Of a DNA stretch of 64,000 nucleotides, positions 24,023-62,293 are shown piece by piece. Under the pieces are notes generated by a model. That model did no database searches. It saw nothing but the letters and a program-made list of their open reading frames with translations, and was not told the DNA's origin. A program made the translations under genes and the position numbers. Source of the DNA: Branchiostoma floridae (Eukaryota; Chordata; Leptocardii; Amphioxiformes; Branchiostomatidae); assembly GCF_000003815.2 (NCBI RefSeq), contig NC_049993.1, positions 17,887,139 through 17,951,138 on the forward strand. Direction: 5' to 3'. The first letter of the stretch is position 1. Every line of letters begins with the position of its first letter.

Positions 24023-27000
24023 ATGTCTGGAGGGAAGCAGCAGTCACAGACTGGTGACACAGGAGGTAACTTGTTTTTTTCTCTCAATTTTTTCACTTAA
24101 TGTCGTACTTTCTGTTGTCGTTGCGACGTTTCTGCATTTGTAGAACGGTACAGACTTGTAACTGCGCGTTTACCACTTCACTTCAAAGGAGTTGTCTAAA
24201 AGTATTGTCCGTCCGTCTGTCAGACTGCCGATACTGTATATTTGTCTCTGCTTGTCTCTTTGACGCATGTGAAGGGGTGAAGTCTACCACATTTGCCTTG
24301 TTCGCATGTTATGGAGCAAGGGAGGGCGTTTTCTTATCATTTTGTAATTTTCCCACAGGTGCCACACCCAAGCAGCAAGACCAGACTGATCGACGGGCAC
24401 GTGCGGGCGCCACTGGCACTGCGAATTTCCCCAACCCTGTCTACGGCGCCGGAGAAGGTTAGAAGATTTCACGATCATGTCCCGGTTTTGTAATACGTAC
24501 CTTACAGGTAGCGTGCGCTATTTGTGCTTATATGGAAGTTTATTTGCAAGTTCATGCCCGACGGCTAGTTGCAAGTACATGGTGTAAACATAGGAGATAT
24601 ACAAATGACAATGAACAGTTATAAACAATAGTCTACTCTAATACTAGTGTTGGCTATTTCTAAACAGGTTGGGTTTAAGTTCTTTGTTGGAAGCAGAGGG
24701 AGACTTGTTTTCTAACAATGCTTATTTTGTAATTTTCATCCAGACCCCACACCCAACAAATTGCCGCAACAGCAGACTGATTGGCAGGCACGTGCGGACG
24801 CCGCTGCGAGTATACCCAACCCTATGTACAGCTCTAAAGCAGGTAAACGTTGGGTATCCTACCGCTGTACTACTTTTTATGACTTTTACTTTTTCGGATA
24901 GCAACAGGGACATTACAATGTGAAAACTAGGCAGCTAACTGATTTTGTAACCACATACATTGTAAACTATCAGCAGAAAACATTGCCCCAAAAAGGCTTA
25001 ATAAGAAGTATTTATTATCCCATACAGTCCTACATTTTCACCATTACCAAGAAGGAGAAGAAGCCGAACTTTTGTGTTAGACTAGATTTGTGATACTTTT
25101 ATATGTATATATCTTGACTTGTTGTGACCTGTACTTAGCTCGGTTGGCCAAAACTGTACAATAAAGGTCTTCTTCATTCATTCATTCATTATGATGCAAT
25201 AATGCTTATGTGGTCAGTTTCCCCAGGCGCTTCACCCAAGCGGCCACAACACACTGATTGGCAGGCACGTGCGGACGCCACTGCGAACATACCCAACCCT
25301 ATGTACGCCTCGAAGTCAGGTAAAATGATATACTTTTTATATTACATTATATATGAAATATGACTGGTATATTTCAAAATACAGCAACATTGACACACAC
25401 ACAGCAGCCATACATAGTCTACAGTAAATGTATTTCTTTATTTCATCACAAAATGTACCAAACGGCTCGATCGACCACATTAGTCAGCCTCATTACGCAG
25501 CATATTGTGTACCTACTGACTGCAAATACACCCGATATACTATATACACCCGACATTCATTTCATTACTATAAAATGTATTAACCATGCTTATGTTGTTA
25601 TTTTGTAATAATTATCCTATTGTAACGCCTGCAGACGCCACACCTACGCAGCAAAATCAGACTGATTGGCAGGAAAGTGCGGACGAAGTTGCGAGTACAC
25701 CCAACACAATGTATGCGTCTATAGCAGGTAAAACCTCGATATCCACTACCGGTCGCTGTACTGCATTAAAGGTGGTATCACACTGCACTTGGGGCACCGG
25801 TGAGGCACTGCGGGGTTCGTTTACCGCGGCACTTTTTTTGTTATTTTCGACATTTTTTTAAAATAAGTTAGATATTGCGTAATACGTCAAAGTATGACTT
25901 AGAAGACAACAAAAAATACACAAAACGTAAGAAAATTTGTTCTTTGTCTCTTAAATTCGTTAAGGAATCTTTTGATCCCCGTAGTGCCACACCGTGCCCC
26001 AAGTGCAGCGAGATACCAGCTTAAGGGCCTTTGTAGGAACCCATGTAGTCACTGAGGCCTTTCTCTGCAGACTTTTGGGTATATCTATTTATTTTCGAAA
26101 TCATATCGTACGTTATCACTATTACTCCTGTTTTGTTCTTGTTGTTTTCATTAGGATAGAATGTTTCAGTTTCATTGGATACTTGAGATCTTTTTTAACA
26201 CAAAAAAAGTCCCCAGAAAAAAAATGATACAGATTTTGCTATCACAAACCTGTAAATATTACCATTCAGAGCCACATACACATAATTTCAATCTAAAAAC
26301 AATGCCTTTTATCCATAACATTAGTAAAAGATAAAAGGAATGGATTCATTGTATAAAACGTACCATTAAACTCCTCAGGCTGTTTTTTGTTATGTGTTAT
26401 CTAAGCCGTGTGTATATCTTCACCCCAGACCCTTTGAATTTTTTAAATATATTTTTTTAGAATCCGAGAAACAATAAAAATCCGAAAAATTTCTAAAAAA
26501 TCCGAGAAACAATAAATAAATTTGGTGTATCCTCACCAAGATTCAACAGACATTGGGACGGACACCCAGAAGAAGAAGAAGAAATATCTCAGCCTCTTCA
26601 AGAAGTTCGCGAAAGCCACAGGCCTCTTCTTCGCCGTGATGACCGTCGTTCTTTTGCCATTATTTGCAGGTGGGCCTTTTCTGTAATTTGTAGAATTCTG
26701 TGTCAACATTGAAAAACGCGTCACATTTCAACACTGCGGTCTCGCCTAATTATTAGAATCGTATATTCATCAATACAACTACAAAGGTTTAGGTCTAAAA
26801 ATTGTAGATTGCATCTTACTACATTATGTAGTTATTAAACACAAACTGGGACTTGTTGTCATTGTTATTGTTTCAAAATATGAGAAAAGATGCTTGACAT
26901 GTGAAAAGGAATTATCTAAGACTGTAGTGCATGTATCGCTCGACCGAGGATTGATTGATTGATTCATTCGGTTATTTATTTATTTATTTCCTGCTTCTTT

Positions 27001-29193
27001 CCTTCATTATTTCATTAAGTCTTGCGTTATCTTTAAGATATTGAACAACGTTATTCAAATATTTAATTCATCTTAGAAGAGTTTCCTCGACTGTCAGAGT
27101 TGCACCATCATCAGTTTAGAATGACCAAATACCTAGGACACGTGACCGTACAGCGTCAGCAATGGGTTTTTCTCTTTCTCTCTTGGTTCAGTTAAAGTGG
27201 TCATTCTCTCTGACGACATGGGCAGGCTTACTGCATGGAACAGGAGGGCTGAGCTGCGAATCTTTGACTTGGAACGTAAGACATTTATCGTAACACCATA
27301 GGACGAAACATTACAATATCTGCAAGAAGTATTCGCATGGCCATCAGCTGTTTAGAATGACCATCATCGACTGACTTTTTGTACTCTTTGAAGTCTGACA
27401 CTGTTGTTAGAAACATTTAGGACCTCAAATAATCTACATTTTCTACAGATTTATATGATGTACGACGATCTTATAGAGTTGTATGACATATTGTTTATTT
27501 TTAGTGTTGATGTTTGATATTTTACATTTTACACAGTTGTGTGATGCTCTGCATTTCACATAGTTGTACGTTCTAATTTCTAATACCGTTCTAATTTCTT
27601 TCTTTCCTGACACAGTTAAGGACAATGCTGTATCTGAGGATGTTGAAAAGCTTGCTGCACGGACAGAACTGCAAATGATTGAGCTGAAACGTGAGCTGGA
27701 GCGTGAGTACTGTCTCTTGAAATCATTGCGCATAAATTCGTGCACCAAAGTTCTCAAACGGGTGTATTACGAGGGGCGTGCAATTAGTAATGGTCCTGAC
27801 CCATTTCCCATAGCAGGAGATTAATGAAACTTGGCACAGTTATTAGTCTTTCTCTTCATAGGAACCACCCAGAGTTATGCATTTCTCCCATCGTTTGATG
27901 CAGCTCTGGACACCGATTTTGTAGGACACCCCAGGTTGGTCCTCCAACTGATGCCTCATCAATGGCACAAGAGGGACGACCAGGTCTGGGAGCTGTTTCC
28001 ACAGACTTCCAGCCACGTTTGAATTCAGGATGCCAGCGTTTTACAAGGTCATATGATGGGGCATCATCACCATAAGTTTCATTTATTTCATCAAAAGTGT
28101 TCTTTGGTGTGCGTCCTTTCAAATACAAAAACCGGATCACTGCGCGACACTCAACTGGTTCCATTTCACACCTGGTCCATTTCGCACCTGACTAAGTTCA
28201 AACACCAGTAAATCAGAAACCACAATTAGTTCAGAGCTGTCTTTTGCAACATAACCCATAGAGATATGAATTATTACACATACAAAATTTCATCTAGATC
28301 AGACAACTGGAAGTGGGTCAGGACCATTACTTATTGCACGCCCCTCGTACTTAATGTTTATTGTAGACTCATCCTAGAATTTTGTAGTTAATTAATGAAT
28401 GAATGAATGAAGACCCTCTTTGTACAGTTTTGCCCAACTGAGCTACGTACAGGTCACAAAAAGTCAAACATGGATATATATATATATATATATATATCCT
28501 AATATATAAAGTATCACAAATCTAGTCTAACACAAAAGTTCGGCTTCTTCTCGCTTCTTGGTAATAGTGAAAATGTAGACTGTATGGGTTTAGCTATGGT
28601 CTGTTTGTTCAAACGCATGTCATCCTCAAATCTACATTTCAGAAATGTGTGTGCTCCCTTGGCTAAACGGGTCGTTGGCAGGGAATGGGTTTTTGGGCCC
28701 ACCGACCCCAACAGGGCCACCGGGACCTTCCGGACAGACGGAGCTCGTCTTGCCGGGAAACCTGACCGGAGTCGTCGGGCCTCCTGGGCTTCCGGGCCCG
28801 CCGGGACCTATCGGGCCACCCGGTCTTCCGGGGTCCGCTGGGGGGCCTCCTGGACCACCCGGACCTATCGGGCCACGCGGAGTTTCCGGGCCAAAGGGAA
28901 ACCAAGGGCAACCCGGACCCGAAGGGCAATCCGGTACCCAGGGGCCACCAGGGCGTAGAGGCCCAAAAGGAGACCGAGGGCCACGCGGGCCTGAGGGGCA
29001 AAGCGGGCTCCAAGGCCCGCCCGGATGGCCGGGGCCTCCCGGGGGGCCGCCTGGGCCATCCGGACCTAAAGGAGAGAAGGGAGACAAGGGCAAGAAGGGA
29101 CCCCCTGGACCCCCAGGAAAGAAGGGAAAAAGTAAAAGGGAAGCAAGGAGATATCGATTTGTTTACACAAAAAATGTAAGGGTCAAGGGTTAG
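24023..29193 (+). CDS. Gene A: type II membrane collagen with four NPxY-type tail exons
   Basis: Exons: 24023-24065, 24359-24457, 24744-24842, 25227-25319, 25635-25727, 26550-26669, 27192-27275, 27616-27702, 28643-29193; all junctions are phase 1 and the sum is 422 codons plus stop. Exon 1 encodes [14 protein letters not shown]. Four tail exons follow with NPVY, NPMY, NPMY and NTMY. Exon 6 has a lysine cluster (QKKKKKY) before a hydrophobic stretch ([16 protein letters not shown]), giving a type II topology with the N-terminus inside. Exons 7 and 8 encode heptad-like segments ([39 protein letters not shown]). Exon 9 starts with [10 protein letters not shown] (a probable inter-chain cysteine and a sequon), continues in Gly-X-Y repeats and ends in a basic tail. 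No lectin domain follows within 2 kb. I know no gene name for it; the plan recalls class A scavenger receptors and CL-P1/COLEC12. Confidence 0.8.
24533..24712. mobile_element. Fragment of a second LINE family
   Basis: 'ttatttgcaagttcatgccc' to 'ggaagcagagggagac' matches about 48057-48206, where the reading frame on the - strand looks like the end of a LINE protein (see 48050). It lies in the intron between the first two NPxY exons of gene A. Confidence 0.55.
25021..25191 (+). mobile_element. LINE 3' end with ATTC tail, intron of gene A
   Basis: It carries the codons for the YIFTITKK terminal region (cctacattttcaccattaccaag...), the ttgttgtgacctgtacttag motif and a tail of attcattcattcatt. 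Same family as 35032-35620. Confidence 0.7.
25766..26024. mobile_element. MITE with 'ggtatcacactgcacttggg' ends
   Basis: The left end (ggtatcacactgcacttggggcaccggtg) is matched in reverse complement at about 25988-26024 (caccgtgccccaagtgcagcgagatacc). A second copy lies at about 33938-34193 in gene B's intron. Confidence 0.75.
26550..26669 (+). CDS. Gene A transmembrane exon
   Basis: Acceptor caacag and donor gtgggc; 40 codons. The basic stretch KKKKK...KKFAK precedes about 20 hydrophobic residues ending in LLPLFAG. The same LPLFAG or QPYFAG end is shared by the paralogous exons in B, C, D and E. Confidence 0.88.
27770..28347 (-). mobile_element. Truncated mariner element with TA target duplication
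   Basis: About 40-bp terminal inverted repeats (cgaggggcgtgcaattagta... against ...attgcacgcccctcg) are flanked on both sides by TA (27768-27769 and 28348-28349). Inside, 28164-27856 on the - strand, a partial transposase N-terminus reads [20 protein letters not shown], then [20 protein letters not shown] and a GRPS motif. That is the helix-turn-helix part of mariner transposases. The catalytic part is missing, so it cannot move on its own. Confidence 0.88.
28393..28640 (-). mobile_element. LINE 3' fragment with GAAT tail, intron of gene A
   Basis: A gaatgaatgaatga tail at 28396 is followed by the 'gtacaggtcacaa' motif, a TA run at 28472-28496 and codons for a terminal TIAKPIQS type peptide on the - strand. 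It abuts the acceptor of the collagen exon (28643), and may supply part of its upstream signal. Confidence 0.65.
28643..29193 (+). CDS. Gene A collagen-like terminal exon
   Basis: Acceptor tttcag ends at 28642. The exon opens with [16 protein letters not shown], includes a GNLTG sequon, then about 115 residues of Gly-X-Y with few breaks and a Lys-rich end ([23 protein letters not shown]). Stop tag at 29191-29193; a candidate poly(A) signal AATAAA lies at 29318-29323. No cysteine follows the opening one. Confidence 0.85.
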
Positions 29194-31807: not shown

Positions 31808-32148
31808 CTAGAATTCGAACCAGGAGGCCCCGGTTCCAGGAGGCCCGGGCCTACCAGCCTTCCCCCTGCGTCCGGCTGGCCCTATCGGCCCCTTCCGTCC
31901 AGGAGGCCCGGGAGGTCCAGGAGGCCCGGTAACAGCAGGGCCAGCCGGCCCCTTCTCTCCAGGACGCCCGGGTGGCCCGGGTGGTCCGGGTGGGCCCGGA
32001 AGCCCACGAGATCCGACAGATCCAGCGCCTTTTGTCTGGTTCCCCTTCTCTTCCGAAGACCCGGATGGCCCTGTCGGAGCCGGTGGCATCATCAAGACAT
32101 TTCCTCCCATAGTCAAAGAGCGTTTTGGCTCAGGGAGTACACACATTT
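31808..32148 (-). CDS. Gene B collagen-like terminal exon
   Basis: Acceptor tttcag on the - strand. It starts [16 protein letters not shown], has an NQT sequon, then a short Gly-X-Y tract rich in GPPGPPG, and stops after WFEF. The ending is unlike the basic tails of A and C, so a frame loss or an unseen further exon is possible. Confidence 0.7.
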
Positions 32149-35100
32149 CTGAAAGGTAGAATATATGCTTTCATTGGCTTGAAAAACTAGGTAAAAAAAT
32201 AAACTAACTTAAAGCTTAACTAGATCTAACTACAAAAAAGAATGGATGCTTTGTCAATCTCCAAGCAGGTCCTACGGTAGCATAAGATAGTACATTGTAT
32301 TAAAAGCTGCCAGAGGAGTGTGTTTGACTACCGGAGTGGCTGATGACTCCCATTGGAAAGCTATACTCCTTAACCAGCTTTGACCCTATCTTATGTCACT
32401 GGTAAATTGATTGATTGATTGATTTTATTTTTGCACTTGAAAAAATGATAACATACAGTAATTATAGAAAACAACAGAACGTGCAAGGGGGGAAAAAAAG
32501 ACATGTGGCTTATACAAACTCTTCCCCCGTGAAAATTTACAAATCATAATACAATTAAATGGACATGAAGATTATACATCAAACAATAATAAACCAAGTG
32601 AAAAAGATATAACCCAGTGATCATCATAACGTTACTATTGATCTTAACATCAAAAACTGAAATTAGACAAAACTAAACATGATCTACAGATCATAAAGAA
32701 ATTAGTCAAAATCATAAAATTAATCTGCTAGCAAAACCAAATGAAAGCAAATACAGAAAACCAAAGCAAGGGTTGCAAACAAACAGGTTAAAGTAGCACC
32801 AAATACACGGTATGATACTAAGTAATAATTGAGCATAATATAATCAAAAGCAAGGAAAAAACATCCTGCCTGCTAATCAGTGACATACATGAAAAGAACG
32901 CAGAGAAGTGATGTGGTCATGTTATGGGTCTTCTGGTGTACAATTTATATCTTATTATTGACATCAGGTCAACAAACGTACGTTCCAGCTCGGTCATTCG
33001 AAGTTCAGTCCGCGCCGTAAGCTTCTCCACGTCATCAGAAAGGGTGACCATCTGAACTGTGTCAAGTAAGAAAGTAAGAAAGAAACAAAATAAACGATCG
33101 ATGATCATGTCGTATGATCACGTGCCCTTTATAAAGAAAATAAGTCCAATACAACAAGTTACTATTTAGTTTGTTTGTCCCCTCCAATCTGTTACCTGCA
33201 ATTAGCCCTCGGGCAAGAATTTGCAATAAATCATTATTCTATATCAAACCTGGATATCTGAGATGTTCATGCATTGGGGTTACTGATGCTACATTAGCAT
33301 ATCTTAGGGTAACCCGCAGAATTATCGACCGAGTTGATCTTCTTCAAACTATAGCAAAAATCAGAACAGGAAATATGAAAAATGGAAGTTCCGCTGCAGT
33401 ACCTCAGCAAGCCACTAGGGGCCCATTATAGAACTTGACCTTCTTTTTTTCTTGACCACTACCCACCTACCAAATATCATCAAGATCCATCCAAAGCTTC
33501 TCAAGTTATGCTGTTGACACACACACAGACAGACAGACAGACAGACAAACAAGCTCAAAACATAAACTTCTGGCGAAGGTAATTACCTGCAAATAATGGC
33601 AACATGATGATGATGAGCACATTGAGGAAGAGACCTGCAGCTTTTAGCAACTTCCTGCACAGGTTCAGACATTTTGCTTTGTTGTTCTTGTCTGGTTCAT
33701 TGTTATAGTGTGATGGTTGAAGAAAAGAAAAGAAAAATTATTAGAATGAAAACATCACATTATGAGATATGAACATCCTGGTACTTTTGCTAATTGCCGA
33801 CGTCATGGTTATATCATGCCGACGTCATGTGCCCGTTAGGTCACGTGTCCTGAGTGGTTAGGCGTGTGCAAAACGAGGAATGTTATATCGTTTTCGCTTC
33901 AATCTTTTTGGTACATTTTTATTACTAAAGGTGAATTATTAAATGTGATATCTCACTGCACTTGGGGCACCGGTGCCGCACTGCGGGGTTCGTTCACTGC
34001 GGCACTGTTGTATCATTTTCGCCATTTTCTTTTTAATAATTTAGATATGGGGTAATATGTAAAAGTATGGCTTAAAAAACAACAAACTACACAAAACGTA
34101 AGAAAATTAGTTTTTTATCTCTGAAATTCGTTGAATAATTTTTCGAACCCCGCAGTGCCGCACCGGTGCCACAGGTGTAGTGAGATACCACCTTTGCATG
34201 ATTTTCAGGTATTTCTCACAACAACAACATGCTAGAATTCACACTTGTAGTAAAGTATCACCGAGTATAAAAACAGTGCGACATCAAATTACTATAAAAA
34301 TTGCACAGGAACAGTAGATAGCGTTTACCTGCTCGTGAGATGTACATAGGGTTGGGTATACTCGCAGCAATGTCTGCAAGCGACTTCCAATCCGTCTGAT
34401 CTTGTGGCAAGGGTGTGGCGCCTGCAAAAAAACATAATCACAAAATAAGAAAATATGAACATTATTTCATATTATAATCTTACATATAAAGCCCTGCCAT
34501 CAAGGGGTCTTAGTCATAATGGCATAACTTACTATAGGTAAATGTCTTAGCACTCTCAATTTATGTACAAAATCGAATAGCAGACTCTACACAGATATTG
34601 ACTTGCCACATGCAGGCAAACACAAGAGAGATAGGATTTGCCGGGCAAGTGATTGTTTTACCTAGCCTGGAATCCAGCCGTGTTGTGCTTTTGTCGCTCC
34701 CCTAAGGTACGCTTCCTGCAACACGTCTGGTGTTCGTTACCATTTGAACGATCGGCATTTGCATATTCCCAGAGATTTTTGATTGGCTGGTTTAAGCGCT
34801 CGTTCGAACAGGCGTTCCATTATCATCAACAGCTCATCTTCTTCGAGACTATTGGAACGATCTGATAAATCAAACTCTTGCCATACTCGCTTGGCAAGAG
34901 TGCTATTCAAACATCCTTCCCGTTGAGAAAAGCCTCTAAGGTCTTTGTTTGCTCGTTTTAGTGCAGAAATTCCGGGAAATTCGCTGGGCAGTTCAGGCAT
35001 TATGAACGTCTGACGCGGCGGCCATGTTGATGATAATGAATGAATGAAGACCTTTATTGTACAATTTTGCCCAATCGAGCTAAGTACAGGTCACAACAAG

Positions 35101-39278: not shown

Positions 39279-39885
39279 ATCGAAAGTATTGGGAACAATT
39301 ATAGTTTCGATTCAGACAATAACATTCAAACACTTATGCTTTATTGGCTTTTGTAATCTTGGTTACATTTTCAACAGTGATTTTACAGCAGGTGTAGATA
39401 TTGGTTCTCAAAGTCTACTTTTTTGCTTATAATGTAGAGTACATAATGTTAGAATAATACAATAAGACATATTCCATATAATTGATATTTTAACACAACA
39501 ATGCATTCGTTCATGGTTGCTTAAGACTGTAAATCAACCAATTAGTACGTTCTTATGATATGATAAGTTCCAGAAGAACCCCAAGTCATTTCACTGTCAT
39601 TGATTTATATTTGCTATATGTTTTATATACATCAAGCAGACTACATATTATGATGAATAACATCATTATTATGATTATAGAATACTGAAAAAAAACGCTT
39701 ATAGAATACAAACGTGTATAATGCTTTTAGCTTCTTCTAACTTTCCTAAGAACAAGTCATTAAGTAGAAGAAAGTGTACAGTCATATGTCATATGTCATA
39801 TGAACTGTGACCATCTTTACATAAGGACCATCTGACTAATACATGGCCCTGTAGATGACCAGCATAACCATCAATCCTGTCTATA

Positions 39886-41257: not shown

Positions 41258-41266
41258 AGGACAAAC

Positions 41267-48694: not shown

Positions 48695-49125
48695 TTACTG
48701 TAAATCGTCCAGGTTGTACTGGCATACGAAGGGTCGCCGAATGGCACATGGCATGTCGTTCCATTTGTAAGGTTGTCCGCCAACTCGGAAATAACCAACG
48801 CAATCCTCACCGCCCTCATAGTTATCCGGTTGCTCCGTACCCCAAGCGTTGTAGTTGCCAAGAGGAGTGCCATCCACCCACTCGAATTGCTCCTTTTCGT
48901 CCTGAATGCGCAAGCCAATCCAGGCGTCGTGATTGAATGCGGAGCTATTATCGATACATTGTATTGCTACTAGGTAGCGGTTGGTCTTGTCGTCTTTGGG
49001 CATGGCGAGGGTACCGCCTTGTTGGCGACAGGTCTCGGCCGCTTCGCTGAAGGGCTTGCCTGTTTTGAAGGCCTTGTAACAGATTCCATTCGGTGGAGAT
49101 TTCGGTTGATAACCAGTAGGACAAA
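48695..49125 (-). CDS. Gene D C-type lectin exon
   Basis: Acceptor ttccag on the - strand; 142 residues plus stop taa. It opens [20 protein letters not shown] (extra N-terminal cysteine pair of the long form), then [53 protein letters not shown] and FVCQY. QPD plus the Glu in GEDC plus WND are the calcium and galactose-type ligand residues of the family. There is one unpaired cysteine (AIQCID) and a DNSS sequon not present in gene E. Confidence 0.92.
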
Positions 49126-52100
49126 CTGGAAGAAAGAGTATCAACACCAGAGAGGTGACCTTGATATTGTAGCGTTCGTGTTACTGTAGTAATTCCACAC
49201 ATATCTAGAAAATGTCCCTTGTTCGGATCATTGTCCTTTTCATGTTGTATCGTTTTGGACGACGAAAAGACGTTGAACTGCGGCTTTACAAGGCAAGAAT
49301 TTTCACACGGCGCAGGTTGAGTGCATCCAATGCATGTAAACATCTGTATCTGTATCTATATAGCCGGTATAACCACCCTAAGGCGTAACACACCAGCTTC
49401 GCAGGCACGCAGCTGGTTATATTTACACGGAACGACCCGTCAAACCTAGCTTTTGCACATATCTATCTGCAAGCGTTCTTTAAAAATATCCAGAGAAGAT
49501 GCCCCTACTGTACTCGGTGATAACAAATTCCACTCTACGATAGTCTTGGAAAGTAATTTTCGAACACATCAATCCTAGATTGATAACTCTGGTAGCTTCG
49601 AACTTCTCATAAATGATACGAAAGAGCACTGACCTTTTTGTCCAGATAGTCCAGAAGACCCGGCAGAACCAGTCCCAACTCCTTTCTCTCCTGGTGCCCC
49701 CATGGGTCCCCTTTCTCCTGGTGCCCCGGCAGACCCAGTTGGCCCCACGGGTCCCCTCTCTCCGGGTGCCCCGGCAGACCCAGTTGGCCCCACGGGTCCC
49801 CTTTTTCCGGGTGGCCCGGCAGATCCAGCTGGGCCCATGGGTCCCCTTTCTCCGGGTGGCCCGGCAGACCCAGCCGGCCCCATGGGTCCCCTTTCTCCGG
49901 AAGGTCCGGGTGGCCCAGCGGACCAAACTTGCTCGATGAGCCCCCTTTCGCGTTCCAGCTCCATTATTCGTTCAGTTAGCTTGCCAAAGTCCGCAGAATT
50001 AGTGCTCACTTTTACTGTAAAAAGAAAATCAAATCAAAATCAATTGCATCATATGACGAGTCAATAAGTAACTGCAAGTTAAGAAGAAAAAGCAATTTGG
50101 GAATAATGGTTTATAAAGAATCTTGGAAAAGATCTTGGAAAAATATCACTATTTGCTAGCAATGGGGAGGGCAATTTGGAAAGCTTAAGTACACCATGAA
50201 TGTGTATCATCAATTATAATTAAGACTTTCATTAGTGTTCGTGCGTGTGTTAGTGTCTTTGTTTGACTGTGCCCACTATAACTCATAAGTACCTATATGG
50301 ATTTTTCTCAAACTTGGTATGTTGGCAGGTGTTGATGCAGCCTCGAAATGTTTAGACTTGGGTAACCTTAGGTGCTCGCTATCCTATCGTAACGGAATTT
50401 TTGGTGTTGATATCGTCTATCATATGTTGATAGATATCTATTATGGTCGGCAAGAGGTGACATAAATTTGGGCTCTATTTTTTTATTTTGTTAGTGGGAT
50501 TCTGTTGAAGGAAAAACTGTTATTTGCAATACAATGATTACCCTGCAAGCAAGTTAGGATAGTGGCGTCGCATGTGCCGTAAGTGGTAGAGCGTTCGACT
50601 CGGAATCTAGAGGTCCCGCGTTCGATACCCACCGTGCCCCCGACGTCGTGACCTTCCTCTATTCACCCAGGTGTAAAAATGGGTACCTAACTTTGGTCGG
50701 GGAGGTAAGAAAAGACTTGCCTTTACCTTTTGTCTGTATATGTGGCACTGTTGATATACTAACTTGAGTGCAGTGCCACATGGTCTCCGTCAGTCCAAAA
50801 GCAAATAGAAAGAAAAGTTTAGATACTGGCCTGCAAAATATGGCTGAAGTGCGATGGAGGCCACAAGGAACACAACGGCTGCAGCCCGCCACAGTTTCTT
50901 GAAAAACCCGGAACATTTCGGCTTGCCGTCAGTGTCTGCACCATAGTCTGAGGTTTGAACAAAAAAAAAACGCTTAATTTTTGGGGTAAATCATTAGTGT
51001 ATTTAACAAAGGAAAGGGGTGACACTCGCAATTTGCAACACGTAACGTTACATACAAAAGAGGAAATAAAATGGCCACCAGTATATTCATTATGAATGAT
51101 CACTCGTTCGCTGAGGGAATCGGAATTAGAAATGGTTTTACCTGCTCTGGTGACGTAAATAGGGTTGATTATACTCGCAGCGGCGTGCGCACGAGCCCGC
51201 CAATCAGTCTGGTCTTGCTGCAAGGGCGTGGCGCCTGGGGAAAATACAAAATATGTACAAACTAAGTACTATCAAAAAATAAGAAGGTATGCATAGTTAT
51301 CTATAAGGCAAACTTAAGTATTAGAATATTGAGGCCTTTACGATTGCCTTCAGTTGACCTGAACATTTCTTTGTAAATCATACAAAACATATAAAAAATG
51401 CTGGACTAAAGGACTCGCGGTTGCACTCTCAATTAATAGAACTTTGATAGAAACCACATAGCACAACGTCCAGTGGATTATCTCTGAATCAACAGTTATT
51501 TACGACAGGATTTCAAGACCAGGACAACAAAGAGTCTTACCTGTTCCCGAGGTGTACATAGGGTTGGATACATTCGCAACTGCGTCCACATATGCCTGCC
51601 ACTCAGTTTGTCCTGGCTGCTTCGGCGTGGTGCCTTTAGGGAAAATGTGAAATAAGCATTATGACAAAATAAAAATATTGGCATAATAACAATTCAAGGT
51701 AAGATTGAATGCTAAAACCAGTAAACTTACCATCAAATATCCCGATGTTTTTAGAAACTCGTCAAAACATAATAATCGTACCCAAAAAATATTATAGTAA
51801 TCTCAACTTATAGACCTCATGTCTGAAAACAAATAGTGCTAGTGTGTTCTGTTTGAATTATCATTTATTTGCTGAGTAAACTGAGTTAACAAAGCAGGGA
51901 GGAAAAAAGGACTGGAAATCTTGTTCACCTGTTCCCGAGGCGTACATAGGGTTGGATACATTCGCAACTGCGTCCACATATGCCTGCCACTCAGTCCGAC
52001 CTGGCTGCTTGGGCGTGGTGCCTGTAGGAAAAAATGTAAAATTAGCATTATAACAAAATAAGAATATTAGCATGATAATTAGTCATCTATAAGGTAAGAT

Positions 52101-54367
52101 TGAATGATAAAACCAGTAAACTTACCATCAGATATCCCGATGTTTTTTTAAAAACTCATCAAAACATAGAAATTACGTACCGAAGAATATTATGGCAATC
52201 TCAACTTATAGACCTCATGTCTGAAAACAAATAGTGCTAGTGTGTTCTCTTTGAATAATCATTTTTTGCTGAGTAAACTGAGTTAACAAAGCAGGAGGAA
52301 AAAGGACTGGAAATCTTGTTCACCTATACCCGAGGCGTACATAGGGTTGGATACATTCGTAACAGCGTCCACATATGCCTGCCACTCTGTCCGACCTCTA
52401 TAACTCATCAAAACATAGAAATTACGTACCGAAGAAAATGTGATGGTTATCTTAACTTATAGACTTTACTAATTAGAAAATAAATAGTACAGAGAAGAAG
52501 AATATCAGAAAAAATAAAGCTAGTGTATTCTTTACGAATTATGATTTGCTTATTCAGTAACCAGATCAGGCAGGAGAAAAAAAATAGGAGTTAAAAGACG
52601 TTTTACCAGTTCTTGAGGCGTACATATGGTTGGGTACATTCGCAGCGGCGTCCGCACGTGCCTGCCAATCAGTCTGATCATGCTGCTTGGGTGTGGCGGC
52701 TGGGGGGGGGGGGGGGGGTATACAGAATATGTACAAAATAAATATTATCACAAAATACGAATATAGGCATAGTTATCGGTAAGGCCAGCTGGAGTATTGG
52801 GGTTTTTAGTATTCTTGTCTTTAGGTGACCTGAATATTTTTGTAAATCATACATACAAAACTTTAAAAGTAGCGTAGCAAACGAAATGTGTTGTCTCAAT
52901 TTATGGAATGTATGTTAGAAAACAAATAGCATGACCAGTACACCATCAAACATGACAATAATAAGTTACCAAACGACATTTGGTGGCAATCTCAACTTAC
53001 AGAATAAAACCAGTATCAGTAAAATTTAAGAGTTATCATTTAAATAGTAAAAAAAGCAACCGGGATTCCAAAACCTGGATGGGAACAATTTTAGGCCCTT
53101 AAAAAGTTACCCTTGCAAAATCCAGCCGTCCCTGTATTTGGGGAGTTAAACAGTCGATGTAAGTGTACTAAATATTGTATGTGTAGTGAATATTGTACTT
53201 CTTCGTTCAGTTTCATCATATATTTGTGCTTCTACATTTTTTCGGTATGATTGCAACACGGTGTTAGAAATACCAGTGCCTGATGCGCTTTAATTTTACA
53301 TCACATTTTTGAACACTTCAGCTGAAATTGAAAAATGTAAGAAAATAAGGATGAATGAATAAATGGTTTATTGACTTGTGTGTGAAAATTTGCAGCCCTT
53401 TCTAGGCGCAAATACCTTCCACTCACATTTTAAGGTAAATAGAAAAGGTGGGACACTTCGTCTTCCACTGCTTCCAGAAAAGAAGTCAACCCCCAAATAC
53501 TCCGTAGCTATCAACAGTATTGCTAGAATAGTCACTTGTTTCCACTTGTCACCATTGTTACCTATGCCAAAGTCTTGTATTTGTATTATATGTATATGTT
53601 TACTATATATTCAGTATGTTCCATGTTGCAATGGGCCCTCGGGCAAGGACTTACAAAAATTAATAAACATAAATTTTGCTCAAAACGCCACATATTTATA
53701 GTGCACGTATCAAAAAGTTAAGGCAGTAAAGAAATCCTAGCTACCGACCTCTCAGTACAGTAACGGTAAACATGTTATTTGTTTTGCTTGTCCTTACCCG
53801 CTCTTGTGGCGTACACGTTGGGAATACTCGCAGTGCCCGCACGTGTCTGCCGATCAGTCTGATCTTGCCGCAGTTGCTTGGGTGTGGTGCCTGGAGGAAT
53901 AATGCAGAAAATACAGAAATTTTTTATTGCAAATTCTTGCCCATGGGGCTAATTGCAGGTGAACAAAATCAAATACACGTAGTGATTAAAAACAGGTAAA
54001 TGGTCTGAATTCAGACATAACGTTACAAAGATTAAGTGATTGACTGTACATACAGAATATAGAATAGGGTTCTAATCAAACGTTACTTTTGCGGGGTTAC
54101 ATTTTGGTCACAAATAGTAAGCGTACGACGAAACATAGAGATGGACAAACAGACAATATGTCAAAGACAATACTACAGTCCATTGGGGTGAAGTAATACA
54201 AAATCCCAATACTAATACTTCAGAAAACTCACAACTACAACATAAAGAACGTCTCACTCAATAAAAGGGAAATAAAGACTTTGACCAAGGACTTGCTTTG
54301 ACAAATCAAGTAAATATCTGTTACCTGCTGTGTCGCGAGTCTGGGACTGCTGCTGCCCTCCCGACAT
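48695..54367 (-). CDS. Gene D: membrane collectin (NPxY tail, collagen, C-type lectin domain)
   Basis: Exons in transcript order: 54367-54325, 53890-53798, 52699-52607, 52395-52324 (shortened copy, uncertain), 52021-51929, 51633-51541, 51234-51142, 50947-50831, 50014-49634, 49125-48695; phase 1 throughout; 502 codons plus stop with the uncertain exon, 478 without. Start [15 protein letters not shown]. Tail motifs in order: PNVY (NPxY lost), NHMY (proline lost), NPMY (short exon), NPMY, NPMY, NPIY. The transmembrane exon is [20 protein letters not shown], then [12 protein letters not shown]; its donor appears to be GC, not GT. A coiled-coil start ([20 protein letters not shown]) runs into about 90 residues of Gly-X-Y, then the lectin domain. 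This is the layout of CL-P1/COLEC12-type receptors: type II, trimeric, endocytic. It is the older-looking partner of the D/E tandem pair. Confidence 0.82.
49341..49482 (-). repeat. Dispersed repeat inside gene D intron
   Basis: Reverse-complement copy of 1959-2112 ('ccaccctaaggcgtaacaca', 'ccagcttcgcaggcacgcag', 'atctatctgcaagcgttctt'). The same element is present at the equivalent place in gene E, so it predates the duplication. Confidence 0.7.
49634..50014 (-). CDS. Gene D coiled-coil and collagen exon
   Basis: 127 codons. [20 protein letters not shown] then [17 protein letters not shown] marks the change from heptads to Gly-X-Y. The collagen is made of 24-30-bp units reading [15 protein letters not shown] or [15 protein letters not shown]. 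Gene E has 37 more codons here, from a different number of units. Confidence 0.88.
50555..50800 (+). mobile_element. tRNA-derived SINE in gene D intron
   Basis: A tRNA-like head (gtgccgtaagtggtagagcg as A box, gcgttcgatacccacc as B box) is followed by 'cacccaggtgtaaaaatggg' and a tail shared with the copy at 58275-58560 in gene E. It lies in the intron between the collagen and transmembrane exons. Confidence 0.75.
50831..50947 (-). CDS. Gene D transmembrane exon with probable GC donor
   Basis: 117 bp, 39 codons. The exon end on the - strand reads tttgcag followed by gccagtatc. A GC donor keeps phase 1, which the next exon requires; the nearest GT donor would break the frame. The same is seen in gene E at 58598. 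Confidence 0.8.
52324..52395 (-). pseudogene. Shortened NPMY exon of gene D, possibly still usable
   Basis: This copy lost its first part (acceptor and TPKQP codons). An AG just before the remaining codons (gttatagag on the - strand) would give a 72-bp, phase 1-1 exon encoding [20 protein letters not shown]. Whether it is spliced is unknown. Confidence 0.5.
52702..52718 (-). repeat. G17 run forming the acceptor tract of an NPxY exon
   Basis: On the coding strand this is a run of 17 C directly before the AG at 52701-52700. Gene E has 16 C at the same place (60625-60640). Such runs are unstable in length. Confidence 0.85.
53350..53700 (+). mobile_element. LINE remnant in gene D intron
   Basis: The frame starting near 53378 reads [20 protein letters not shown], then [13 protein letters not shown], similar to the end of LINE-encoded proteins. 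It is followed by the 'ccctcgggcaaggacttaca' 3' end. Duplicated at 61276-61626 in gene E. Confidence 0.5.
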
Positions 54368-55320: not shown

Positions 55321-55735
55321 TGGTAACAGATGTAGTACATTTTCATGATGAGACTTAGACAGTTACATTCAGAGACTTATTGCTTTATTTACTTTAAAAT
55401 TTGCAATCTTGGGTACATAGTAAATAGTAATATGAATTTATATATGCCAAATGTCGATATTGTTGTCTACATTGGCTTACTTAACTGTTGTAGATCTGAC
55501 TGCCCACTTACTATATGATATAGATATTCGAATGGTACATTAGTCAGTTAGTTTGTCAGTTAGAATCAGAGCCTACGTCAACAAAAATTATCATATCATT
55601 GATACCACATCCTTCATTCACCAGCCTGTGATTTTACCTGCCTGTTTTGGATAAGTCCATCCCTAATCTCTAAAACACTAGAGATAACAACTTCAAAGTT
55701 AACCAATTATAGTTAAGCAAACATTTATTCTGGGG

Positions 55736-55935: not shown

Positions 55936-56355
55936 CGTAAATCTATTCATAAACATTTATTGTTAATTCATAAATTCTTGATTCTTATCGAGTAAGCATC
56001 ATTGATACATCTTTTCATCAGATTCTACCCCAACAACACTTACAACACTTATCAGAATAAGGAAACTACATCAGCCGCATCTTTTACACGTATTGAATCT
56101 GAAGATCTAAGACTGCTAAGATCTGCTCAACATTGCTTTTAAGCATCTTTTATAGCATTAGTGTCATAATGTTTGAATAATTTTACTTGAAACACTTTCA
56201 ATCAAATTCTACCTCATCAAACGTATTAGAACATAAAGTAACCAGATCTAGGAATCGAACTGATGACTCTATCTTTCTCAGCCTCTTGACCCAATCCCTT
56301 GAACACGTGATTTTTAATGTTTTTTTTTTAAGTCAGCTGGCAGCCAATGGGTAAT

Positions 56356-56792
56356 TTATTCTAATTCGTCCAGGTTGTATTGGCATACGAAAGGTCGCTT
56401 TATGAAACATGGAAAGACGTTCCATTTGTAAGGTTGTCCGCCAAGTCGGAAATAACTAACGCAATCCTCACCGCGCGTGCCCTCGTAGTGATCCGGTTGA
56501 CCCGTACCCCAAGCGCTGTAGCTGCCAAAAGGAGTGTCATCCACCCACTCGAATTTCTCCTGTTCGCGCTTATAGCGCAAACCGATCCAGGCGTCCTGGT
56601 CGTATGGGTTGGTCTCGTCGGTATATGATATTGCTACTAGGTAGCGGTTGGTCTTGTCGTCTTTGGGCATGGCAAGGGTACCGTCTTGTTGGCGACAGGT
56701 CTCGGCCGCTTCGCTGAAGGTCTTATGTGTTTTGAAGGCCTTGTAGCAGATTCCGTTCGATGGAGATTTCGGTTGATAACCAGAGGGACAAA
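56356..56792 (-). CDS. Gene E C-type lectin exon, WND changed to WNV
   Basis: 144 residues plus stop. It has the same six-cysteine frame as gene D (VC, GIC, ETC, EDC, FPC, FVC), WIGL, and QPD followed by GEDC. The motif that is WND in gene D reads WNV here, removing a usual calcium-ligand aspartate. The stop codon taa overlaps an AATAAA on the coding strand. Confidence 0.92.
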
Positions 56793-59700
56793 CTGAAAAA
56801 GAAAGTAACATCAGAGAGGTGAACTTGATATTGTAGCGTTCGTGTTACTGTAGTAATTCCACACATATCTAGAAAATGTCCCTTGTTCGGATCATTGTCC
56901 TTTTCATGTTGTATCGTTTTGGACGACGAAAAGACGTTAAACTGCGGCTTTACAAGGTACGAATTTTCACACGGCGCAGGTTGAGTGCATCCAATGCATG
57001 TAAACATCTGTATCTGTATCTATATAGCCGGTATAACCACCCTAAGGCGTAACACACCAGCTTCGCAGGCACGCGGCTGGTTATATTTACACTGAACGAC
57101 CCGTCAAACCTAGCTTTTGCACATTTATCTGCAAGCGTTCTTTAAAACTATCTAGAGAAGATGCTCTTACTTTACTTGGTGATAACAAATTCCACAAAGA
57201 ATACTGACCATTTGGTCCAGGTGGCCCAGAAGACCCGGTAGAACGTGGCCCAACTGGCCCCATGGGTCCCCTTTCTCCGGGTGGCCCGGCAGACCCAGCT
57301 GGTCCTATGGGTCCCCTTTCTCCGGGTGGCCCGACAGACCCAGCTGGCCCCATGGGTCCCCTTTCTCCGGGTGGCCCGGCAGATCCAGCTGGGCCAATAG
57401 ATCCCATTTCTCCGGGTGGCCCGGCAGACCCAGCCGGCCCCATGGGTCCCCTTTCTCCGGGTGGCCCGATAGACCCAGCTGGGCCCATAGGCCCCCTTTC
57501 TCCTGGAGACCCAGCTGGCCCTATGGGCCCCCTTTCTCCAGGTGGCCCGGCAGACCCAGCTGGCGCCGCGGGCCCCCTTTCTCCGGAAGGGCCGGGTGGC
57601 CCAGCGGACCAAACTTGCTCGATGAGCCCCCTTTCGCGTTCCAGCTCCATTATTCGTTCAGTTAGCTTGCCCAAGTCCGCAGAATTAGTGCTCACTTTTA
57701 CTGTATAGAGAAAAAGCAAATCAAAATCAATTGCATCATATGCATATGACGAGTCAATAATTAACTGCAAGTTAAGAAGAAAAAGCAATCTGTGAACAAT
57801 GGCTGATAAAGAATCTTGGAAAAGATCTTGGAAAAATATCACTATTTGCTAGCAATGGGGAGGGCAATTTGGTACACCATGAATGTGTATCATTACTTAT
57901 AATTAAGACTTTCATTAGTGTTCGTGCGTGTGTTAGTGTCTTTGTTTGACTGTGGCCACTATAACTCATAAGTACCTATATGGATTTTTCTCAAACTTGG
58001 TATGTTGGCAGATGTTGATGCAGCCTAGAAATGTTTAGACCTGGGTAACCTTAGGTGCTCTCTATCCTATTGTAACGAAATTTTTGGTGTTGATATGGTC
58101 TATCATATTTATTTTATTTATTTATCTTTTTATTTATTTATTTATTTATCATATGTTGATAGATATCTATTATGGTCGGAAAGAGGTGACATAAATTTGG
58201 GCTCTAGTTTTTTTATTTTGTTAGTGGGATTCTGTTGAGGGAAAAGTGTTATTTGCAATGCAATGATTGCCCTGCAAGCAAGTTAGGATAGTGGCGTCAC
58301 GTGTGCCGTAACTGGTAAAGCATTCGACTCGGAATCTGGAGGTCCCGTGTTCGATACCAGCCGAGCCCCCGATGCTGTACCCATGGGAAAGGCACTTTAC
58401 ACGACCTTCCTCACTTCACCCAGGTGTAAAAATGGGTACCTGACTTCGGTCGGGGAGGTAAAAGACTACCTTTACCTTCTGTCCGTACTGTGTATGTGGC
58501 ACTGTTAATATAAGTTATTAACTTAAGTGCAGTGTCACATGGTCTCCGTCAGTTCAAAAGCAAATAGAAAGAAAAGTTAAGAACTTAAGATACTGGCCTG
58601 CAAAATATGGCTGAAGTGCGATGGAGGCCACAAGGAACACAACGGCTGTAGCCCGCCACAGTTTCTTGAAAAACCCGGAACATTTCGGCTTGCCGTCAGA
58701 GTCTGCACCATAGTCTGAGGTTTGAAAAAAAAAACGCTTAATTTTGGGGGTAAATCATTAGTGTATTTAACAAAGGAAGGGGGTGACACTCGCAATTTGC
58801 AACACGTACATACAAAAGAGGAAATAAAATGGCCACCAGTAGATTCATTATGAATGATCACTCGTTCGCTGAGGGAAAAAAACATGATTTAAAAATCGGA
58901 GTTAAAAATCGTTTTACCTGCTCTGGAGACGTAAATAGGGTTGATTATACTCGCAGCGGCGTGCGCACGTGCTCGCCAATTAGTCTGGTCTTGCTGCAAG
59001 GGCGTGGCGCCTGGGGAAAATACAAAATATGTACAAAATAAGTACTATCACAAAATAAGAATGTATGCATAGTTATCTATAAGGCAAACTTAAGTATTAG
59101 AATATTGAGGCCTTTACGATTGCCTTCAGTTGACCTGAACATTTCTTTGTAAATCATACAAAACATATAAAAAATGCTGGACTAAAGGATTCGCGGTTGC
59201 ACTCTCAATTAATAGAAATTTCATAGAAACCACATAGCACAACGTCCAGTGGATTATCTCTGAATCAACAGTTATTTACGACAGGATTTCAAAACCAGGA
59301 TAACAAAGAGTCTTACCTATTCCCGAGACGTACATAGTGTTGGATACATTCGCAACAGCGTCCACATATGCCTGCCACTCCGTCCGACCAGGCTGCTTGG
59401 GCGTGGTGCCTTTAGGGAAAATGTGAAATAAGCATTATGACAAAATAAAAATATTGGCATAATAACAAGTCATCTGTAAGGTAAGATTGAATGATAAAGC
59501 CATTTAACTTACCATCAAATATCCCGATGTTTTTAGAAACTCGTCAAAACATAATAATCGTACCCAAAAAAGATTATGGTAATCTCAACTTCTAGACCTC
59601 ATGTCTGAAAACAAATAGTGCTAGTGTGTTCTGTTTGAATTATCATTTATTTGCTGAGTATACTGAGTTAACAAAGCAGGGAGGAAAAAAGGACTGGAAA

Positions 59701-62293
59701 TCTTGTTCACCTATTCCCGAGGCGTACATAGGGTTGGATACATTCGCAACTGCGTCCACATATGCCTGCCACTCTGTCCGACCTGGCTGCTTCGGCGTGG
59801 TGCCTTTAGGGAAAATGTGAAATTAGCATTATGACAAAATAAGAATATTGGCATAATAACAAGTCATCTGTAAGGTAAGATTGAATGATGAAACCAGTAA
59901 ACTTACCATCAAATATGCCGATGTTTTTAGAAACTCGTCAAAACATAATAATCGTACCCAAAAAATATCATTAATCTCAACTTATAGACCTCATGTCTGA
60001 AAACAAATAATGCTAGTGTGTTCTGTTTGAATAATCATTTTTTTGCTGAGTAAACTGAGTTAACAAAGTAGGGAGGAAAAAAGGACTGGAAATCTTGTTC
60101 ACCTATTCCCGAGGAGTACATAGGGTTGGATACATTCGCAACTGCGTCCACATATGCCTGCCACTCTGTCCGACCAGGCTGCTTGGGCGTGGTGCCTTTA
60201 GGTAAAATGTGAAATAAGCATTATGACAAAATATAAATATTAGCATGATAACAAGTCAGCTGTAAGGTAAGATTGAATGCTAAAGCCAGTAAACTTACCA
60301 TCAGATATCTCGATGTTTTTTTAAAAACTCATCAAAACAAAGAAATTACGTACCGAAGGAAATGTGATGGTTATCTTAACTTATAGACTTTACTAATTAG
60401 AAAATAAATAGTAGAGAGAAGAAGAATATCAGAAAAAATAGAGCTAGTGTATTCTTTACGAATTATAATTTGCTTATTTAGTAACCAAATCAGGCAGGAG
60501 AAAAAAATAGGAGTTAAAAGACGTTTTACCAGTTCTTGAGGCGTACATAGGGTTGGGTACATTCGCAGCGGCGTCCGCGCGTGCCTGCCAATCAGTCTGG
60601 TCTTGCTGCTTGGGTGTGGCGCCTGGGGGGGGGGGGGGGGTACAAATATGTACAAAATAAATATTATCACAAAATACGAATCTAGGCATAGTTATCTGTA
60701 AGGCCAGCTGGAGTATTGGGGTTTTTAGTATTGTTGTCTTTAGGTGACCTGAATATTTTTGTAAATCATACATACAAAACTTTAAAAGTAGCGTATCAAA
60801 GGAAATGTGTTGTCTCAATTTATGGAATGTATGTTCGAAAACAAATAGCATTACCAGTACATCATCAAAAATGAAAAGGATAAGTTACCAAACGACATAA
60901 TATAAAAAAAGAAACCGGGATTCCAAAACCTGGATTGGAAGAATTTTAGGCCCTTAAAAAGTTACCCTTGCAAAATCCAGCCGTCCTTGTATTTGGGGCT
61001 TTAAACAGTCGATGTAAGTGTAGTGTATATATTACCATAGCAAAATCCACCCGTCCCTGTATTTGGGGAGTTAAACAGTCGATGTAAGTGTACTAAATAT
61101 TGTATGTGTAGTGAATATTGTACTTCTTCGTTCAGTTTCATAATATATTTGTGCTTCTACATTTTTTCGGTATGATTGCAACACGGTGTTAGAAATACCA
61201 GTGCCTGATGCACTTTAATTTTACATCACATTTTTTATCACTTCAGCTGAAAATAAAAAAATGTAAGAAAATAAGGATGAATGAATAAATGGTTTATTGA
61301 CTTGTGTGTGAAAATTTGCAGCCCTTTCTAGGCGCAAATACCTTCCACTCACATTTTAAGGTAAATAGAAAAGGTGGGACACTTCGTCTTCCACTGCTTC
61401 CAGAAAAGAAGTCAACCCCCAAATACTCCGTAGCTATCAACAGTATTGCTAGAATAGTCACTTGTTTCCACTTGTCACCATTGTTACCTATACCAAAGTC
61501 TTGTATTTGTATTATATGTATATGTTTACTATATATTCAGTATGTTCCATGTTGCAATGGGCCCTCGGGCAAGGACTTACAAAAATTAATAAACATAAAT
61601 TTTGCTCAAAACGCCACATATTTATAGTGCACGTATCAAAAAGTTAAGGTAGTAAAGAAATCCTAGCTACCGACCTCTCAGTACAGTAACTGTAAACTTT
61701 ATATTTGTTTTGCTTGTCCTTACCGGCTCTTGTGGCGTACACGTTGGGAATACTCGCAGTGCCCGCACGTGTCTGTCGAACAGTCTGATCTTGCCGCAGT
61801 TGCTTGGGTGTGGTGCCTGGAGGAATAATGCAGATAATACAGAAATTTTTTATTGCAAATTCTTGCCCATGGGGCTAATTGCAGGTGAACAAAATCAAAT
61901 ACACGTAGTGATTAAAAACAGGTAAATAATCTGAATTCAGACATAACGTTACAAAGATTAAGTGATTGACTGTACATACAAAATATAGAATAGGGTTCTA
62001 AACATACGTTACTTTTGCGGGGTTACTTTTTGGTCACAAATAGTAAGCGTACGACGAAACATAGAGATGGACAAACAGACAATATGTCAAAGACAATACT
62101 ACAGTCCATTGGGGGTGAAGTAATGAAAATCCCAATACTAATACTTCAGAAAACTCACAACTACAACATAAAGAACGTCTCACTCAATAAAAGGGAAATA
62201 AAGACTTTGACCAAGGACTTGCTTTGACAAATCAAGTAAATATCTGTTACCTGCTGTGTCGCCAGTCTGGGACTGCTGCTGCCCTCCCGACAT
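56356..62293 (-). CDS. Gene E: membrane collectin, tandem paralogue of gene D
   Basis: Exons in transcript order: 62293-62251, 61816-61724, 60622-60530, 60195-60103, 59803-59711, 59409-59317, 59010-58918, 58714-58598, 57700-57209, 56792-56356; phase 1 throughout, 548 codons plus stop. Start [15 protein letters not shown]. Tail motifs in order: PNVY (lost), NPMY, NPMY, NPMY, NTMY (proline lost), NPIY. The transmembrane exon is like gene D, with the same GC-type donor. The collagen exon is longer (164 codons). The lectin exon is strongly diverged from gene D around the binding site. Introns are close to identical with gene D. Probably a trimeric endocytic receptor; ligand specificity cannot be read from sequence. 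Confidence 0.85.
57002..57140 (-). repeat. Dispersed repeat inside gene E intron
   Basis: Same element as 49341-49482 and 1959-2112, in the equivalent intron between collagen and lectin exons. Confidence 0.7.
57209..57700 (-). CDS. Gene E coiled-coil and collagen exon
   Basis: 164 codons, acceptor tacag, donor gtcagt. Same start as gene D ([20 protein letters not shown]), then [15 protein letters not shown]-type units, several of them 60-bp repeats. Some units are shortened (GPAGSPGERG), showing unequal repeat exchange. Confidence 0.9.
58095..58160 (+). repeat. (TTTA)n simple repeat, gene E only
   Basis: A tttatttatttatc-type run inserted in the intron between the collagen and transmembrane exons. 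The same position in gene D (near 50415) lacks it, so it expanded after the duplication. Confidence 0.8.
58275..58560 (+). mobile_element. tRNA-derived SINE in gene E intron
   Basis: More complete than the gene D copy: it keeps 'atgggaaaggcactttacac' between the tRNA-like head and 'cacccaggtgtaaaaatggg'. B box ttcgataccagcc. Confidence 0.78.
58598..58714 (-). CDS. Gene E transmembrane exon with probable GC donor
   Basis: 39 codons: [20 protein letters not shown], then [20 protein letters not shown]. The donor side on the - strand is gcag followed by gccagtatc, as in gene D. Confidence 0.82.
58918..61816 (-). other. Gene E cytoplasmic NPxY exon array (6 exons)
   Basis: Six 93-bp phase 1-1 exons at 61816-61724, 60622-60530, 60195-60103, 59803-59711, 59409-59317 and 59010-58918. 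The three between 59.3 and 60.2 kb are repeats of one unit of about 390-395 bp including intron and encode [10 protein letters not shown] and SNPMY or SNTMY. The other three are older, more diverged copies. Confidence 0.87.
61276..61626 (+). mobile_element. LINE remnant in gene E intron
   Basis: Duplicate of 53350-53700, with the same open frame (107 codons) and 3' end. Confidence 0.5.

Follow-up and report, generated by a model that had tools for sequence, protein, structure and literature searches.

Tandem phase-symmetric exons encode repeated NPxY-type modules in the predicted cytoplasmic tails of a very large lancelet family of putative type II receptors

How does a gene come to carry the same putative uptake signal several times over, one exon per copy, and what might the resulting protein tail do? 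This question is raised by a 64,000-nucleotide stretch of the genome of the lancelet Branchiostoma floridae (assembly GCF_000003815.2, NC_049993.1, positions 17,887,139 to 17,951,138 of the forward strand; hereafter the window, which lies within contig C15). An earlier note on this DNA had described five paralogous genes, A to E, in which short exons ending in NPxY-type motifs are repeated ahead of a transmembrane exon. We find that these exons belong to a family far beyond the five genes, which is very large, and we consider it reasonably probable that its members are type II receptors with repeated NPxY-type tail exons and varied heads, acting in uptake through adaptors with a phosphotyrosine-binding (PTB) domain.

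To define the repeated unit, we built a profile from the 15 NPxY-containing module copies and scanned it across the six reading frames of the window. The scan gave 20 strong matches, with E-values from 5e-24 to 1e-8, and the next match had E = 0.17. Gene A, on the forward strand, holds four copies, and genes B, C, D and E, on the reverse strand, hold three, one, six (one of them short) and six. With exon borders computed from splice signals, the modules span 24359..61816; profile and borders together thus reproduce the range given in the earlier note, and the copy counts claimed there (4, 3, 1, 5+1 and 6) are exact. Seventeen of the exons measure 93 bp, two (A1 and A2) 99 bp and one (D3) 72 bp. 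All 20 have an AG ahead and a GT behind that fit phase 1-1, the computation having covered phase-1 borders only, and the claimed symmetry is therefore borne out: any subset of the modules keeps the frame.

The motif reads NPxY in 15 of the 20 copies, NxxY without Pro in three (NTMY twice, NHMY once) and NVY, in which one codon is lost, in two. Specifically, placed by profile and borders, the gene A modules lie at 24359..24457 (NPVY), 24744..24842 (NPMY), 25227..25319 (NPMY) and 25635..25727 (NTMY). Those of gene B, all NPMY, lie at 37040..37132, 35873..35965 (with the weak donor GTTAAA) and 34329..34421, and the single gene C module, also NPMY, at 45437..45529. Gene D has, in order, 53798..53890 (NVY), 52607..52699 (NHMY), the shortened 52324..52395 (NPMY), 51929..52021 (NPMY), 51541..51633 (NPMY) and 51142..51234 (NPIY). 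Gene E has 61724..61816 (NVY), 60530..60622, 60103..60195 and 59711..59803 (all NPMY), 59317..59409 (NTMY) and 58918..59010 (NPIY). Other occurrences of the motif in the window were set aside: the frame of NPSY at 53733 and 61659 on the forward strand runs into the antisense side of module 1 of genes D and E, and the module profile does not pick up the NPPY near 9.1-9.9 kb, the NPVY at 39873 or the NPIY at 19975.

The arrays are framed in the same way in every gene. Comparison of the five upstream regions revealed one conserved ATG exon with a phase-1 donor upstream of each array (24023..24065 in gene A, 38342..38384 in B, 45855..45897 in C, 54325..54367 in D and 62251..62293 in E). Downstream of the last module, again in all five genes, comes a membrane exon with a basic flank that is entered in phase 1 (26541..26669, 33587..33691, 44737..44856, 50831..50947 and 58598..58714, respectively). 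The modules thus stand ahead of the membrane exon, as had been claimed, and in each of the five genes the frame that runs from the start exon through the modules into the membrane exon has no stop. The predicted tails, of 4, 3, 1, 6 and 6 modules, are about 70 to 225 residues long.

Behind the membrane exon, all five genes have a stalk exon that is coiled-coil-like by eye, followed by collagen, for which Pfam was run on genes A, C and E while B and D were judged by reading. In gene A, the stalk exon (27191..27289, a similarity range, as are those of B and C) is followed by a second stalk-like exon (27630..27692, likewise a similarity range) and by a collagen open reading frame (ORF) at 28594..29193 (Pfam Collagen, 7.5e-18). 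Gene B has its stalk exon at 32953..33057 and a collagen-like ORF, from Gly-X-Y reading, at 31808..32170; gene C has a stalk exon at 43339..43425 and a long collagen ORF at 41267..43096 (Pfam Collagen, 1e-55). Stalk and collagen share one ORF in gene D (49575..50033, the stalk by similarity) and in gene E (57087..57848, Pfam Collagen 3.5e-19), and both genes continue into a C-type lectin domain, at 48698..49123 (Pfam Lectin_C, 4.2e-20) and 56359..56790 (4.3e-18), respectively. The best-scoring solved chains for the gene D lectin domain are of the PLA2/mannose-receptor family, followed by collectin-11.

The scope of five genes in the earlier note proved too small once the whole 513-Mb assembly was searched. 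A 32-residue module query gave at least 150 matches (the best 150 of 413 candidates) on 18 contigs, all with E < 2e-6 and without stops, and a membrane-exon query for a dispersed subfamily also gave at least 150 (the best 150 of 325 candidates), all with E < 3e-14. Contig C10 carries 49 of the best 150 module matches, by eye mostly at 19.3-23.9 Mb, and is also rich in membrane-exon matches among the best 150 of 325; this region is a family megacluster. The pattern AAYCCNATGTAY occurs 802 and 854 times in the genome and its reverse 522 and 451 times, an excess too coarse for module counting.

We sampled 20 stretches of 10 kb from the module matches and 24 smaller stretches (loci with L numbers below). 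Start exons of the MPGG/MSGG type occur in 13 of the 20 larger loci (16 exons), and a phase-1 GT lies near every one of the 16, in 15 of them at the same place. One start exon, at oriented position 422 of L008, ahead of a four-module array, has an in-frame stop (MRKG*QQS); L008, in which the stretch examined holds a collagen-like stretch and no lectin domain, is perhaps a decayed gene. Among the 20 loci, 18 have a membrane exon, 16 strong stalk matches and 13 a lectin domain. Lectin domains are also found in L036, L037, L038, L040, L041 and L043, and none in L039.

The heads found by Pfam across the sampled loci are Lectin_C, Collagen, Kringle, Ldl_recept_b and Fibrinogen_C. A kringle head stands behind the common stalk in L002 (1.6e-24), and L042, a locus chosen for its membrane exon, has a fibrinogen domain (3.5e-29). 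YWTD repeats follow the stalk in L016, L017 and L019; one exon of L017 passes the Pfam cut-off, and those of L016 and L019 fall below it but are similar in sequence and position. The sugar-site motifs of the lectin domains in L001-L020 vary as well (QPD, EPN and others, with WND retained in some), and we take the QPD and EPN types to predict galactose- or mannose-type binding.

On which side of the membrane do the modules lie? Because the frame stays open from start exon to membrane exon in every one of the five genes, the arrays are predicted to be cytoplasmic, forming the tail of type II proteins. The cytoplasmic site given in the earlier note is thus supported as a prediction, by the joined frames together with the basic-flanked membrane exon. 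If instead the topology were inverted, or the membrane segment were a cleaved signal sequence, the modules would be extracellular or lumenal, and the type II orientation is indeed predicted from sequence only. However, of 22 membrane segments analysed, taken from 17 loci and from genes A to E, 20 have a net positive N side. The C side was covered in part and, for the loci, up to the exon end, which makes this no full comparison of the two sides; the count excludes L008, L011, L036, L038, L041-L043 and the second rows of L018 and L020. Moreover, the collagen, kringle, lectin and fibrinogen heads, which are extracellular folds, sit C-terminal to the membrane segment. We therefore regard an inverted arrangement as very improbable.

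The next question is whether the modules are under coding constraint. A DNA profile run over L001-L043 and the window found 117 copies, 112 of them full length, with no stop in any of the 117 and no frameshift in any of the 112; the profile was trained on intact copies and favours them, although a copy with one damaged base should still have been picked up. Phase 1-1 borders, the only ones sought, were found for 111 of 114 module copies, at loci on 17 contigs. The profile E-values, together with the absence of stops and frameshifts in the full-length copies, rule out chance. For 111 aligned copies, an alignment that omits the 3 of 114 without a donor and three copies in L036 and L042, a parsimony count on their tree gives a ratio of nonsynonymous to synonymous change (dN/dS) of 0.66 overall. 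By site, the ratio is 0.31 for the NPxY codons, 0.16 for Asn and Tyr and 0.07 for a conserved Thr, against 0.75 outside the six codons of Phi-x-N-P-x-Y (Phi, hydrophobic).

Part of the similarity among modules is due to recent duplication. Taken with its intron, each of modules E3 and E4 forms a 394-bp unit; the two units are 95% identical, and D4 and E4 compare likewise; the likeness of E5 to E3 and E4 is confined to 95 bp of exon. Such near-identical units in genes D and E point to changes of copy number by tandem duplication, and it is whole exon-intron units that appear to duplicate. Among 43 clusters, sizes range from 1 to 8 modules, clusters at stretch ends possibly being cut. We hypothesize, as the earlier note did, that uptake is tuned by copy number or splicing.

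These duplications also bear on the idea that the module exons are neutral repeats or pseudo-exons that rarely or never enter mature mRNA. The E3/E4 unit is mostly intron, which means that part of the likeness reflects recent duplication; several donors are weak (GTTAGA, GTTAAA, GTGAAC); and the overall dN/dS stands at 0.66. Set against this are the 112 full-length copies free of stops and frameshifts, the phase 1-1 borders in 111 of 114 copies across 17 contigs, and the start and membrane exons that flank the arrays in matching phase. On balance, we give the neutral explanation little credence.

What, then, is conserved in the module? Since the query holds NPMY, we analysed apart the 43 copies outside the seed list as a check on search bias; among these, 42 keep Thr, 41 Asn, 37 Tyr and 25 Pro. 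The conserved core is Thr...Asn-x-x-Tyr, with Pro usual but dispensable; NxxY is found in 100 of the 111 copies and NPxY in 74. A variant starting W(R/Q) recurs on several contigs and is the only one in the single-copy stretches L026, L032, L033 and L035, where 500 bases upstream were examined. Types also differ in their position within the array, as counted among genes of two or more copies and with figures that shared gene ancestry inflates: the SI/SL subtype of this variant, with Ile or Leu at its diagnostic place, makes up 10 of 26 last copies and 2 of 68 others (p = 3e-5), NALY 6 of 26 and 0 of 68, and NPxY is rarer in last copies (13 of 26 vs 50 of 68, p = 0.048).

The description of some modules as decayed thus holds in part. 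Motif loss is real where a codon is missing, as in the NVY of module 1 in D, E, L021 and L022, and where Tyr is replaced by Asp; some of the copies so described, however, form a recurrent membrane-proximal type and need not be dead. The mannose receptor motif FENTLY, a Phe-x-Asn-x-x-Tyr without Pro like the NALY and NTMY copies, mediates clathrin-dependent uptake (PMC8551360), and so offers a precedent for them.

We now turn to the function of the tails. A hydrophobic residue occupies Tyr-5 in 90 of the 111 copies and Tyr+3 in only 2 of the 101 copies with Tyr, which fits the Phi-x-NPxY type of PTB ligand and speaks against YxxPhi and against immunoreceptor tyrosine-based inhibitory or activation motifs (ITIM, ITAM). 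Phi-x-N-P-x-Y in a predicted cytoplasmic tail, as found here, is a feature of PTB-binding uptake receptors. The genome also contains PTB (PID) exons, with 12 matches over the cut-off. The NPxY tail of MEGF10 binds the PTB adaptor GULP, an interaction lost in an APxA mutant (PMC1762421). From the motif fit, the PID exons and this precedent, we infer that uptake or engulfment via PTB adaptors is the best explanation. Two other identities were rejected, namely that of an ITIM/ITAM receptor, given the Tyr+3 figure and the lack of any ITIM in the five tails, and that of a YxxPhi or dileucine endocytic receptor, since the five tails hold two YxxPhi, both in gene A, and no dileucine of the form [DE]xxxL[LI]. 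Comparison of the module with PDB sequences gave one uninformative match (E = 1.2).

In the gene plan that emerges, a short ATG exon is followed by 1-8 phase-symmetric module exons, each adding Thr-Asp-Trp...Phi-x-Asn-Pro-x-Tyr to the predicted tail, then by a transmembrane exon with a basic N side, a stalk and a ligand-binding head that varies from gene to gene. In the mechanism that we propose, the coiled-coil-like and/or collagen stalk would trimerise the receptor. Each NPxY may then dock a PTB-domain adaptor of the Dab2/ARH, Numb or CED-6/GULP class, and this docking would drive clathrin uptake or engulfment of the ligand bound by the head. Repeats on a trimer would present many docking sites and could thereby confer adaptor avidity.

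A resemblance to integrins suggests another partner, in that the module might recruit talin/kindlin-type FERM domains and couple the receptor to actin. A Trp does precede the NPxY, and 1 of 19 window modules gives a sub-threshold match to Pfam Integrin_b_cyt (E = 0.15). However, the other 18 have no such match, and the module Trp lies 15 residues before the Tyr, whereas that of integrin beta tails lies 8 residues before it. Identity with an integrin beta tail was rejected, since none of the 19 modules matches significantly, and integrin-like anchoring seems to us quite improbable.

The NPxY arrays seem to represent one among three or more kinds of tail on a common membrane/stalk platform (borders of the alternative tail exons were read by eye). 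A second, exon-like tail frame, ...NPVYG...SMEPYAVRYQEED, with its own NPVY and repeated EPYAVRY units, comes ahead of the module in L016, L017, L019 and L042 (in L042 with MELLAS in front of it) and is also found in L005 and L039. Its place in L005 is behind the module array and ahead of the membrane exon, which perhaps points to a second promoter. A third frame, MYEQAEPVRSPF...DTYEEAEAVKR...TSAG, occurs in L041 (3831-4055), L043 (4123-4341) and L018 (7214-7441), and apparently ends in phase 1, with a membrane exon of the family type following it (in L018, the second membrane exon).

These sister tails lend some weight to a reading in which the tails are tyrosine-phosphorylated signalling platforms, with phospho-NPxY recruiting Shc/IRS-type PTB domains or kinase-linked adaptors and copy number setting the signalling output. 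DTYEEAEAV and EPYAVRY, carried on the same membrane/stalk exons, are like kinase/SH2 sites, and the modules retain Tyr even without Pro (100 of 111 copies have NxxY, 74 have NPxY). On the other hand, the tails of the five genes contain no ITIM, a hydrophobic Tyr+3 is as rare as stated above, and the hydrophobic Tyr-5 suits PTB domains of the Dab/ARH/Numb type, which bind without phosphate. Signalling thus seems to us unlikely as the main role, though well within consideration.

A broader proposal builds on the exchange of both ends of the protein. Here, the family would constitute genome-encoded combinatorial receptors, in which one membrane/stalk platform receives exchangeable tails (NPxY, PYAV, YEEA) and heads (lectin, collagen, kringle, YWTD propeller, fibrinogen) through phase-compatible exons in at least 150 genes, and repeat number, set by duplication and splicing, encodes the strength of uptake. 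We put this forward tentatively, as a possibility that falls short of an even chance. Lancelet domain combinations are noted as possible gene-prediction errors (PMC4967905); the exon joins described here were not taken from gene predictions but rest on phase-matched DNA exons that recur at several loci.

Returning to the reading of the family as receptors for uptake through PTB adaptors, we note several observations that weigh against it. The collagen of genes A, B and C has no lectin domain that we could find behind it, and the label of receptor is therefore firmest for D and E. In these two, however, the membrane exon has GC (GCCAGT), not GT, as its sole visible phase-1 donor, and splicing there may be inefficient or go through another site. 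Two of the 20 sampled loci, L009 and L015, have neither a membrane exon nor a lectin domain in the sampled stretch, that of L009 being partly N. Among the three loci chosen solely by their membrane exon, only L042 has a module; in the upstream sequence examined for L041 and L043 there is no NPxY module and a different tail exon stands there, which indicates that membership of the family does not depend on the module.

The evidence from the motif itself is likewise mixed. In raw counts, motif and remainder differ with borderline significance (p = 0.058 by a one-sided Fisher test, and p = 0.04 for Asn plus Tyr), the dN/dS tree is built on 90 bp, and gene conversion among copies is likely. Pro is missing in 28 of the 111 copies, a change that would weaken many PTB ligands. 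In L022 (C15:17972900-17975899), six of eight modules have Tyr replaced by Asp (NPMD, NPID); the Asp is either an acidic stand-in for phospho-Tyr or the mark of a dead array.

How does this family compare with known receptors? CED-1/MEGF10, LRP1 and LDLR resemble it in carrying NPxY in the cytoplasmic tail, and some lancelet members share a YWTD-type head with the LDLR type. They differ in being type I with one or two NPxY, as uptake receptors normally are, whereas the lancelet motif is exon-encoded and tandemly repeated in predicted type II proteins with many heads. CL-P1 (COLEC12) and the class A scavenger receptors are type II with a stalk, collagen and a C-type lectin head, as D and E are predicted to be; the likeness in collagen plus lectin is limited to those two genes, A, B and C having no detectable lectin domain. 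To our knowledge, NPxY arrays are absent from the vertebrate CL-P1 and class A scavenger receptors. The mannose receptor, for its part, is a type I receptor with a single motif.

Lancelets have large numbers of C-type lectin genes. For this expansion, we found no description in the open-access literature of tandem NPxY exons, of NPxY modules in lancelet lectins, of the shared start exon or of the exchange of heads and tails, in agreement with the earlier statement that no described receptor family is built in this way. Receptors with NPxY are a known kind; what we did not find reported there is such a tail built from repeated exons in a large family whose heads and tails vary. At least 150 putative receptors with a repeated, splice-ready uptake signal on many heads would offer a natural series for relating motif number to adaptor avidity, endocytosis and phagocytosis. 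They also suggest how an animal without antibodies could link diversified recognition to one shared route of uptake, with shuffling at both the tail and the head of the receptor.

Two further observations were made in passing. Between the genes of the window, ORF fragments resembling retroelement tails are repeated, at 35138-35722 on the reverse strand, near 23451 on the forward strand, and near 55362 and 63300 on the reverse strand. Elsewhere in the assembly, an exon-like frame in L044 (C1:29114701-29115500) contains five NPMY in 11-residue repeats (SGNALQPNPMY) that have no evident likeness to the 31-residue module; at this locus, a second multiplication of NPxY appears to have taken place within the genome.

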